NCBI GenBank assembly: GCA_902827205.1
Contig: LR792634.1
Coordinates: 806,001-870,000, forward strand
Direction: 5' to 3'
Source of the DNA: Methanocaldococcus lauensis
Lineage (GTDB): Archaea; AGJL01; Methanococci; Methanococcales; Methanocaldococcaceae
Length of the DNA stretch: 64,000 nt
Part shown: piece by piece, positions 1 to 39,511 of the stretch
How positions within the stretch are numbered: the stretch's first letter is position 1
Layout: every line of letters starts with the position of its first letter
Notes under the pieces: model-generated
The model's input: the letters and a program-made list of their open reading frames with translations, nothing else
Database searches by the model: none
Told to the model about the DNA's origin: nothing
Made by a program: the position numbers and the translations under genes

Positions 1-1689
1 TACAAAATATTATCAGATAAATATTTACAACAAAAAAATAATGATGTAATTCCAAGGTATTATATTGAAGGTGATCCAATACTATCTATTTTAAAAATTA
101 CTGTAGAAAACAAATATAATAAAGATATTTTAGCAAGATTGTTCATAAATTATGGCAATAAAATTGTAAAAAATATAAAGCTTAATAAAACCAAAGATAA
201 TATTCTATATATTCCAATATATACAACTAAAGGGACAAAAAATATAGAAGTAAAGATATATCCTATAGATGCTGATAAACTTATTTTTGAGAAAAATTAT
301 TCTGTTAATATAAATCCAATACCTGTAGCTCCTGTAATTATTGAAAACGTTATTTTACCTAAAGATGACAATATAAATACTGATACAAATATTGGAGGAG
401 ACGTTTTAGTAGGAAAAAAATACAATATAACAATAATACTAAAAAATATCTATAATAAAACATTATATGGTAAAATTACTATAGATGATAATTTTCCTAA
501 AGGTGTAGCAAATTATACTAAAACAATAAACTTTAGCATATATCCTCATACAACTAAAAAAATAAATGTTCCAATAATATTTTATAGGGAAATTAATGGG
601 GATTTAAAGATTACTGTTTCTGTTGATGGGGGATCTAAGGATTCCACATCTTTGGCACACTTTTGTGCAGTGCTACCAATAGATGTAATTAGAGTATATT
701 ATAACAACACTTTACTATTGGGAAAAATAAATACAATAAACAAAAATGGAGGAATTTACATAAATAAACCTATTGCAGGCTTTAACAACACATGTGTAGT
801 TGAACTTAGAAATAAATTAAATAAAGATATTGTATGCGATGTTTGGGTAGAAGTTATTGATGAAAATGGAACTATTAAAGCAAAAAGTAATTGCAAAACA
901 GTTACTTTAAAAAAATTATCTACTACTGAAATATCATTTCCAATATTTTTTGATGAGGGATTTGAAGGATATACTATAGCGCATATTATTCCAAAATCCT
1001 TAGAAAATGTTGATATTACATATACTGAAGGTTATGGAATACATCCTGTTCTAATATCAAACTACTATGAAATTGGGAGATATTCAGCTATTGATCTCTT
1101 AGGTAATAAAGTAGCAACAGGGACACATGTAGTTACAGAAGTTATTTCTCCAGTGAATATTGAAAATATATCGTATAATGATAGTATATTGATTGCAAAA
1201 ATTAGAAATGACAAGTTTCCAGTAAATTTAACAATACAGTATTGGGCAGTTATTGAAAATAATTCAAAAATATATTATAAAAGTCCAACCTATCAGGAAG
1301 AAATCTATCCAAAATCTGAAAAGAGTTTGAAAATACCTATAGATACTAAAACTCTAAAATTTGGAAGATACAATGTAACATTATACATAAAAATTGATGA
1401 CTTTGCATTATACAATAATAAAAAAGTTCCAATAATTTTACAAAAATCAGTATCTCTTACAAATAATAAAAATATACTTAACGGACATCATAATAACCTT
1501 ACAGAACAATATAATATCACATCTAAAAATAAATCAGATATTATAAATACAAAAGGAAATTCTACCGAAATTTCAAGAAAAAATGCTATAAATAGGACTA
1601 AAAAAACCTCAGAACATAAAAACATATTAAGTAACTTTTCTGAGTTTTTAGAGGGAATAGTTTCTACAATTATTGGAATTTTTAGATAA
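1..1689 (+). CDS. Large surface-type repeat protein, 5' end outside the window (partial)
   Basis: The reading frame is open from the first base, so the visible 562 codons are the C-terminal part of a longer protein; the internal ATG at 139 is not a start. The visible part is rich in beta-branched residues, Asn and Lys and carries many N-x-S/T sequons. It reads like tandem Ig-like or CARDB-like beta-sandwich domains; for example, the phrase 'VGKKYNITIILKNIYNKTL' is typical of such domains. A low-complexity Asn/Lys/Ser stretch follows, then a short hydrophobic C-terminal segment ending GIVSTIIGIFR that could touch the membrane. An exported, glycosylated cell-envelope protein is inferred from composition only. 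I do not recognise the family. Confidence 0.6.
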   Translation, partial: YKILSDKYLQQKNNDVIPRYYIEGDPILSILKITVENKYNKDILARLFINYGNKIVKNIKLNKTKDNILYIPIYTTKGTKNIEVKIYPIDADKLIFEKNYSVNINPIPVAPVIIENVILPKDDNINTDTNIGGDVLVGKKYNITIILKNIYNKTLYGKITIDDNFPKGVANYTKTINFSIYPHTTKKINVPIIFYREINGDLKITVSVDGGSKDSTSLAHFCAVLPIDVIRVYYNNTLLLGKINTINKNGGIYINKPIAGFNNTCVVELRNKLNKDIVCDVWVEVIDENGTIKAKSNCKTVTLKKLSTTEISFPIFFDEGFEGYTIAHIIPKSLENVDITYTEGYGIHPVLISNYYEIGRYSAIDLLGNKVATGTHVVTEVISPVNIENISYNDSILIAKIRNDKFPVNLTIQYWAVIENNSKIYYKSPTYQEEIYPKSEKSLKIPIDTKTLKFGRYNVTLYIKIDDFALYNNKKVPIILQKSVSLTNNKNILNGHHNNLTEQYNITSKNKSDIINTKGNSTEISRKNAINRTKKTSEHKNILSNFSEFLEGIVSTIIGIFR

Positions 1690-8061: not shown

Positions 8062-9117
8062 ATGGATAAAAAGAATGAAAAAAATAAAATAAAACTAACT
8101 GAATTGGTTAAATTACACGGATGAGCATGCAAACTGCCCAGCACCGAGTTAGAGTATTTAGTAAAAGACATAGTTATAGATGAAGATTTAAAAGATAAAA
8201 ATATTATAGTAGGATTGGGAGATGACGCATCAATAATTAAAAGAAATGGTTTAGTTATAGCAAAAACAGTTGATGTCTTTACCCCAATAGTTGATGATCC
8301 ATATATACAGGGAAAGATAGCTGCTTGCAACTCAACAAGCGATATATATGCTATGGGGCTTTTAGACATTATAGGAGTTTTGGCAATAGTAGGAATTCCA
8401 GAAAAATTGCCAATACCAATAGTTAGAGAAATGTTAAAGGGCTTCCAAGATTTTTGTAGAGAGAATAAAACTTCAATAGTTGGAGGGCATACAATACTAA
8501 ATCCATGGCCCTTAATTGGAGGAGCAGTTACTGGTGTTGGTAGAGAGGAGGAAGTATTAACAAAAGGAGGAGCAAAAGAGGGAGATGTTTTAATACTAAC
8601 AAAACCCTTGGGAACTCAAACAGCGATGGCTCTAAATAGAATTCCAGAAGAGTTTGAAAATCTATTAAATATAACTACTGAGGAAAAAAATTATATTGTT
8701 AATAGAGCAATAGAGATAATGACAACATCAAACAGATATGGATTGTTAGCTTTAAGAAAAGCAGAAGAAAGAGTTGGAGATAAAATAGGTAATGCATTAA
8801 CAGACATTACAGGATTTGGAATATTGGGACATTCAAATGAAATGGCTAAAAATAGCAATGTTTTAATTGAAATTATTACTTTACCATGCATAAGAAAAAC
8901 ACCTGAATTAAGTAAGATGTTTGGTCACGCATTATTGGAAGGTTATGGAGCAGAAACTGCTGGAGGTTTATTAATATCAGCAAAAAAAGAATATAAAGAT
9001 GACTTAATTGATGAATTGGAAAAATATAAATGTTATTCATTTGAAGTTGGTAGAGTGTTAAAGAGAGGAGAAGGTAAGGCAGTTTTATCAAAGGATGTTA
9101 AAGTTATTGAAGTATAA
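8062..9117 (+). CDS. selD: Selenide, water dikinase (selenophosphate synthase), selenoprotein with in-frame UGA
   Basis: SelD makes selenophosphate from selenide and ATP, the selenium donor for selenocysteine. A plain ORF call begins at 8215, but the true frame begins at ATG 8062 (GGTGAT upstream). It reads through TGA at 8122-8124 as residue 21 in HG-U-ACKLPSTELEY, which aligns with the catalytic Cys/Sec and conserved Lys of SelD. The protein is then 351 aa, the normal family length. GLGDDASI, DVFTPIVDDPY and TDITGFGILGHSNEMA are family motifs. A consensus archaeal SECIS follows the stop codon. M. jannaschii SelD is a known selenoprotein with this arrangement. A long exact complementarity links the UGA region to the stop codon. 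Confidence 0.96.
8132..8151 (+). promoter_or_regulatory. Upstream arm of a 20-bp long-range complementarity in selD
   Basis: AACTGCCCAGCACCGAGTTA begins 7 nt after the selenocysteine UGA and is the exact reverse complement of 9115-9134. It encodes part of KLPSTEL using CTG CCC AGC ACC GAG, G+C-rich codons unlike the surrounding A/T-ending codons. This suggests selection on the RNA rather than only on the protein. Confidence 0.8.
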
Positions 9118-9134
9118 CTCGGTGCTGGGCAGTT
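9115..9134 (+). promoter_or_regulatory. Downstream arm of the selD long-range complementarity, overlapping the stop codon
   Basis: TAACTCGGTGCTGGGCAGTT starts with the selD stop codon TAA and ends one base before the outer stem of the SECIS. All 20 bases pair with 8132-8151, with Watson-Crick pairs only. In the mRNA the two arms are separated by 963 nt. Confidence 0.8.
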
Positions 9135-9201
9135 ATTTAAAAATGTCTTTGGTCGATGTGCCGAACCCTTCCTTAGGGAGGCACATCGAAAATCTTTAAA
9201 T
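9135..9201 (+). promoter_or_regulatory. Archaeal SECIS element in the selD 3' UTR
   Basis: The stem CGATGTGCC (9154-9162) pairs with GGCACATCG (9180-9188). An internal loop of GAA (9163-9165) faces a single A (9179). The upper stem CCCT (9166-9169)/AGGG (9175-9178) is closed by a 5-nt loop. This GAA/A architecture is the archaeal SECIS consensus. An A/T-rich outer stem, 9135-9141 with 9195-9201, extends it. It directs selenocysteine insertion at the UGA in the same mRNA. Confidence 0.95.
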
Positions 9202-37831: not shown

Positions 37832-37871
37832 GCGATAGGAGATGCGTCCCCGATCTGGGAGGGTCGGGGCT

Positions 37872-39499
<1,628 letters not shown>

Positions 39500-39511
39500 A
39501 TAAGAATAAGT

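Follow-up and report, generated by a model that had tools for sequence, protein, structure and literature searches.

Conserved long-range complementarity suggests an RNA tether between the selenocysteine codon and the SECIS of selD and other Methanococcales genes

Introduction

In Methanococcales, the SECIS of fdhA1 lies in the 5′-UTR, and its flanks are complementary to the open reading frame just past the selenocysteine (Sec) UGA codon (Peiter et al. 2025, PMC11881835). This complementarity is conserved in the order, is longer in thermophiles, and follows a trend with growth temperature (PMC11881835). The same paper describes the SECIS of sps (selD) as the strongest of those tested and, in the sections consulted, reports no pairing for it (PMC11881835). 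No SECIS-binding protein is known in archaea (PMC11881835, PMC8211752).

Three other systems are comparable in part. In the PRTE-DRTE interaction of Tombusviridae, a site past the recoded stop likewise pairs with a distant 3′ element; however, this system is viral, was shown by mutagenesis, serves readthrough rather than Sec insertion, and has neither a SECIS nor homology to the present case (PMC3234231). The SRE and HRE of eukaryotic SPS and selenoprotein genes are also RNA structures that adjoin the UGA and aid recoding, but they are local (PMC4561486). The bacterial SECIS likewise places its recoding signal immediately 3′ of the UGA. It is a local hairpin bound by SelB, whereas the archaeal SECIS is characterized by a GAA/A motif and a UTR location.

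The selD gene of Methanocaldococcus lauensis resembles fdhA1 (PMC11881835) in that an arm near its SECIS pairs with the open reading frame shortly 3′ of the UGA (20 bp, UGA+7). Unlike fdhA1, where the SECIS is embedded between two half-arms (PMC11881835), selD, fwdB, and hdrA have one-sided arms located 5′ of the SECIS. The sequence-only reading was aware of no description of such an arrangement in archaea. This holds for selD, fwdB, and hdrA, which were not found described in the consulted parts of the literature, but not for fdhA1, which was published in 2025 (PMC11881835). A 2026 review and an Asgard survey, in their accessible parts and within the openly licensed literature searched, do not mention a tether.

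Results

The selD locus and its two arms

The window is a 64 kb stretch (positions 806,001–870,000) of M. lauensis contig LR792634.1, from a genome of 1.48 Mb. Its features are listed in Table 1. Orthologs of selD are present in 33 of the 36 genomes of the order. The in-frame TGA was kept in 28 of 30 loci by exact match, and TGA was also read in L022 and L030.

Table 1. Positions of the selD elements in the window and of the cross-gene arm in other loci
Feature	Position	Strand	Remarks
selD coding sequence (selenophosphate synthetase)	8062..9117	+	351 codons, translated with TGA=U
Selenocysteine UGA codon (HGUACKLP) of selD	8122..8124	+	
5′ arm of the putative selD tether	8132..8151	+	7 nt (8125-8131) past the UGA; exact complement of 9115-9134
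UAA stop codon of selD	9115..9117	+	opens the 3′ arm
3′ arm of the putative selD tether	9115..9134	+	assigned by complementarity and covariation; contains the UAA stop in some species only
Archaeal SECIS element of selD	9153..9189	+	stem I, GAA/A internal loop, GC-clamped apical stem
Cross-gene arm, examples	L093:10776-10814; L090:10163-10203; L089 11520-11558 (reverse strand)		

A search of the window recovered the exact 20-nt complementarity noticed in the sequence-only reading, and the position of the first arm 7 nt after the UGA and the presence of the UAA stop in the second arm were both as described there. The 5′ arm reads AACTGCCCAGCACCGAGTTA, and the 3′ arm is its perfect 20-nt reverse complement. 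The two arms are the sole matches within the 64 kb, even when three mismatches are allowed. A chance origin had been judged unlikely, and this judgment is upheld by the absence of any match in 100 shuffles and by the conservation and covariation in relatives described below. Among the inverted repeats listed for the window with arms at most 3 kb apart, the selD pair alone is 100% complementary over at least 18 nt. The other GC-rich distant pair listed flanks the 16S rRNA gene (37871-37916 / 39455-39500; a 46-nt stem, 83% complementary). It is probably a pre-16S processing stem, and we take it as such and as an internal positive control for the inverted-repeat listing.

The core 15-mer of the arms occurs in exactly two copies per genome in nine genomes, both in the selD arms alone. 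A dispersed repeat or an operator is ruled out by this genome-wide confinement. The 5′ arm is built of codons that are rare in the genome, namely CTG (1.3% of Leu), CCC (7.7%), AGC (4.6% of Ser), and ACC (8.5%). From the codon use of the window, the joint probability of the synonymous choices in CTG CCC AGC ACC GAG is 1.2e-6.

The SECIS of selD (TCGATGTGCCGAACCCTTCCTTAGGGAGGCACATCGA) matches the SECIS model and aligns with 21 other selD SECISs. Two stems, the GAA/A internal loop, the GC clamps, and a location in the UTR of a Sec gene were all found there. The second arm had been said to end at an outer stem of the SECIS (9135-9141/9195-9201). Position 9135 does adjoin the arm, but that stem is an A/U-only 7-bp match (ATTTAAA/TTTAAAT), and the recognizable SECIS begins after a gap of 18 nt. 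This gap is 14–95 nt in the relatives, a variation that speaks against the proposed end-to-end stacking of the helix on the SECIS.

Conservation and covariation of the selD helix

Complementarity of the same placement was found in 13 of 13 Methanocaldococcaceae loci and in 11 of 17 Methanococcaceae loci; no tether was found in selD of Methanococcus sensu stricto. The helix score was at least 30 in 24 of the 30 loci, with a median of 19 nt, a start at UGA+6..10, and a 3′ arm 14–95 nt before the SECIS. Fifteen loci (all 13 of the Methanocaldococcaceae and two of Methanotorris, genus g5) have a 17–27-nt helix starting at UGA+6..10, and their scores are 44–55 compared with about 18–20 for shuffles. 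Pairing is kept despite sequence change, as in CTGCCCAGCACCGAG/CTCGGTGCTGGGCAG, CTTCCCAGCACCGAAT/ATTCGGTGCTGGGAAG, CTCCCCAGTACTGAGC/GCTCAGTACTGGGGAG, and CTCCCCAGTGCTGAGC/GCTCAGCACTGGGGAG.

The compensatory changes anticipated across selD loci were found: 9 of 18 base pairs show two-sided changes (43 cells). The covariation score is 0.355, compared with 0.162 for shuffles (0/500 reached the observed value) and at most 0.094 when the arms are slid. Mapped onto a SelD tree from which the arm sequences were excluded, the 12 core columns require about 8 coincident two-sided changes. The pairing registers were picked for maximal pairing, which biases the paired percentages upward and affects the coincident changes less.

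The position of the 3′ arm relative to the stop codon varies. It starts 23 nt past the stop in the M. jannaschii-type locus L007; its start in L016-L024 and L029 is 49–57 nt before the stop, inside the coding region. In the latter loci the SECIS mostly follows the selD stop directly, and the same 5′ arm now pairs with the coding end; the relocated arm also shows matched changes (CTTCCCAACACC vs CTTCCCAACGCC). As read from these comparisons, the 3′ arm is relocated into the coding end of selD in some relatives, following the SECIS. The idea that the helix serves to hide the stop codon does not agree with these positions.

Asgard selD genes have at most 13–14 nt of complementarity (UGA+5 with stop-59), no more than elsewhere in the gene. 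The 13–14-nt match recurs at the same place in the Lokiarchaeota loci L048, L049, and L052, within background. Two further SelD homologs, L041 and L044, are of the Cys type (HGCSCKLP) and come from MAGs titled Nitrososphaerota archaeon.

fwdB, hdrA, fdhA, and genes with a near UGA

A search for partner arms in other archaeal selenoprotein genes had been proposed, and such arms were found in fwdB, hdrA, and fdhA. Most SECISs outside selD escaped a SECIS model trained on selD, so the comparison was made through homologous genes. Genomes G002, G003, G004, G013, and G035 are presumed to be M. fervens, M. infernus, M. jannaschii, M. vulcanius, and Methanotorris igneus, respectively. The design common to all four genes is one arm 6–50 nt past the Sec UGA and a partner beside the SECIS. 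In fwdB, 26 of 39 loci reached a score of at least 30; the helix has a median of 21 nt and begins at UGA+16..29, and its 3′ arm ends 7–22 nt before the SECIS. Of its 17 pairs, 6 covary, and none of 500 shuffles reached the observed score. The corresponding fraction for hdrA was 17 of 32 loci (median 25 nt, UGA+25..50, arm 16–20 nt before the SECIS), with different genera using different coding segments for the arms. Nested inner helices were also found in hdrA and fwdB, for example hdrA UGA+149..168 with stop+6..25, and hdrA of M. igneus has three nested helices.

In fdhA, which has a 5′-UTR SECIS, the complementarity was recovered independently in the present comparison. A 16–17-bp match joins the leader 3′ of the SECIS with UGA+25..42 in Methanocaldococcus and Methanotorris. 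The score was at least 30 in 16 of 23 loci, 8 of 17 pairs covary, and 0/500 shuffles reached the observed score. Since the 5′ flank of the SECIS (GGCACC) pairs too, the helix encloses the SECIS (PMC11881835). In selD, fwdB, and hdrA, the 3′ flank of the SECIS showed no significant pairing with the UGA-arm interval, and no signal of such two-sided embedding was found. In fdhA of G006 and G034 (L168, L173), about 800 nt separate the UGA from the SECIS and arm upstream of it, and the complementarity is retained. The distant SECIS and arm of these two loci apparently precede an extra gene.

The UGA-SECIS distance is about 1.0–1.6 kb in selD, fwdB, and hdrA and about 0.4–0.8 kb in fdhA. No clear tether was found in vhuD, vhuU, and fruA, whose UGA lies within about 390 nt of the SECIS (74 nt before it in vhuU and 390 nt in vhuD; the fruA UGA is 75 nt before the stop). 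The best match in vhuD and fruA scored 29 and is located past the SECIS, in M. vulcanius vhuD2.

Controls and folding

Ordinary genes were represented by 359 pseudo-sites in 26 ORFs. Their scores averaged 20.9 and reached 36.5, with 10 at 30 or more and none at 40 or more. Scores of 30–36 alone are therefore not decisive, and tether matches in this range rest on repeated position and covariation. Pairs of 5′ and 3′ sites from the same gene scored at least 40 in 49 of 94 cases, compared with 8 of 172 for mismatched genes of the same genome, and all eight of the latter are the hdrA arm to the fwdB SECIS described below. An unbiased self-complementarity scan of the hdrA-fwdB operons (~7 kb, six genomes) returned tether-type or nested helices alone. 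The proposed folding of the full selD mRNA gave a minimum-energy structure that includes the helix at 37, 65, and 85 °C with pair probabilities of 0.84–0.99, where the 85 °C fold uses extrapolated energy parameters.

Exceptions of the G.U (12) and A.C (14) types are about equally frequent when scored symmetrically, so the sequences do not establish selection on the sense RNA over the antisense strand. This equality would suit inverted repeats that act at the DNA level or bind a protein, and the coding location of both arms in L016-L024 and L029 would suit conserved coding sequence paired by chance. Such explanations are highly improbable: the selD motif was found nowhere else in nine genomes, the arm sequences diverge while complementarity persists, the different genes have distinct sequences and only the geometry in common, and ordinary genes give no score of 40 or more. 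Judged by these comparisons, the selD complementarity is neither a product of chance nor a peculiarity of selD.

A candidate cross-gene arm in hdrA and loci without their own SECIS

A second segment of hdrA, UGA+6..30, has a 22–24-nt complement in the fwdB 3′ UTR, which belongs to the same gene cluster and lies 7.2 kb further downstream. Its partner abuts or overlaps the fwdB arm and lies 26–29 nt before the fwdB SECIS. The cross-gene arm is present in eight Methanocaldococcus genomes, including M. vulcanius, whose hdrA is without a normal SECIS of its own, and G006, whose own hdrA arm is weak. The segment hardly varies, and covariation cannot be read there.

The hdrA and fwdB UGAs of G003, G008, and G012 are without their own SECIS and without a tether, and no arm to any operon SECIS was found for these genes in the M. 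infernus-like G003 and in G012. Among Methanocaldococcus hdrA and fwdB genes, an own SECIS and an own-3′UTR arm co-occur (16/1/0/8; Fisher 8e-6, a post hoc value from species that are not phylogenetically independent, where a simple finder and visual inspection decided on the absence of a SECIS).

The fwdB genes of G012, G003, and G008 (L119, L124, L134) keep the Sec UGA, with no SECIS within about 320 nt of the stop. Downstream of the hdrA stop in G013, G007, G012, G008, and G003 (L144, L146, L147, L150, L151), a short hairpin replaces the normal SECIS; it is preceded by AUGA and followed by GAU (k-turn-like), and has no GAA/A motif.

One fwdB-proximal SECIS has two distinct arms, one directed to fwdB and one to the hdrA UGA 7.2 kb upstream. 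This would be expected if the arms were an address that assigns each SECIS its UGA in polycistronic mRNAs and spares true UGA stops, instead of raising efficiency. We regard an address of this kind as very unlikely to be the whole function, as selD has the tether and the stretch around it yielded no second selenoprotein gene. A broader form of the tether reading is proposed tentatively, at somewhat below even odds: the tethers may constitute a general RNA addressing system in which covarying arms dock every distant SECIS at its UGA and the operon-terminal fwdB SECIS is docked at two UGAs, including that of hdrA about 7.2 kb upstream, and the operon mRNA of Methanocaldococcus may fold into a hub with several SECISs. 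The hdrA-fwdB contact could also form between molecules.

Discussion

We propose, with a probability of about 0.72, that the selD arms form an intramolecular RNA helix that docks the SECIS close in front of a ribosome at the UGA, and that this is a general device of Methanococcales for far UGAs. The sequence-only reading had supposed an mRNA loop that brings the SECIS beside the UGA, and a conserved and covarying long-range helix argues for it. A tether function in selD, fwdB, and hdrA is likewise suggested by sequence comparison. The tethers share with the tombusvirus interaction a distant pairing 3′ of the recoded stop that is supported by covariation.

If the helix forms in cells, as we infer, it would loop out nearly the whole coding region of selD and bring the 3′-UTR SECIS just downstream of the UGA. 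The arm 3′ of the UGA would lie outside, or at the leading edge of, the paused ribosome and could stay paired while the UGA is decoded. A ribosome with the UGA in its A site would then meet the SECIS, and any bound factor, ahead of it, which should favor Sec insertion over termination. The ribosome would subsequently melt the helix, which may reform behind it. In genes with a 3′-UTR SECIS, the SECIS and the UGA would exit the same end of the helix, while in fdhA the SECIS would be held within it; the shared outcome in all four genes would be a SECIS positioned some tens of nucleotides in front of the ribosome.

Reporter data on a heterologous fdhA1-type construct, the sole experiment found, bear on this model. 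Complementary flanks left the total activity unchanged, lowered the mRNA about three-fold, and raised the activity per mRNA two-fold, and the same reporter functions normally without pairing (PMC11881835). These data are suggestive of a tether that raises Sec insertion but are not proof of it. A 3′-UTR SECIS is active 520–679 nt away without a designed tether, so the tether is not strictly required (PMC9622424). The three-fold loss of mRNA at the same total activity (PMC11881835) could instead mean that the helix mainly governs mRNA stability or decay, through 3′-end protection or as a double-strand cleavage site, and not recoding. We consider this unlikely because it leaves three things unexplained: the constant place of the arm just past the UGA in all four genes, a partner that flanks the SECIS whichever UTR contains it, and the lack of the helix in near-UGA genes.

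A different role would be that of a roadblock beside the UGA that itself promotes readthrough, as in SRE or viral structures, with SECIS proximity being secondary. SRE structures beside the UGA of eukaryotic SPS genes provide a precedent (PMC4561486). The selD helix starts 6–10 nt past the UGA. A spacing of 6–10 nt is typical of recoding stimulators. The ribosome pausing envisaged in the sequence-only reading is possible for selD, but it fits poorly with hdrA (+25 to +50) and fwdB (+16 to +29). We hold the roadblock to be quite unlikely as the main role, since the fwdB, fdhA, and hdrA arms start 16–50 nt away, mostly beyond direct contact, and the partner lies next to the SECIS in every case, even though a hairpin formed locally would suffice. 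The UGA-proximal segment of selD does not have the local stem-loop of the SRE/HRE kind: its predicted partner, beside the SECIS, is 963 nt away and is the one that appears in the lowest-energy fold of the full mRNA. A feedback switch responding to SelD had also been imagined; fwdB, hdrA, and fdhA share the design yet make no selenophosphate, which counts against it. The docking of the SECIS ahead of the ribosome is the reading that we prefer.

Several features appear to be new: the presence of such complementarity in genes with a 3′-UTR SECIS, its covariation, an arm that moves together with the SECIS, helices nested inside one another, and an arm that joins two genes. If real, the arm from hdrA to the fwdB SECIS would be a very long functional contact within, or between, cellular mRNAs. 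The tether model yields defined single and compensatory mutants and may supply design rules for artificial archaeal selenoproteins. It predicts which genes need a tether (those with a far UGA) and which do not (those with a near UGA), and it would give a purely RNA-based answer to the question of how, in archaea, a UTR SECIS acts on a UGA as much as 1.6 kb distant.
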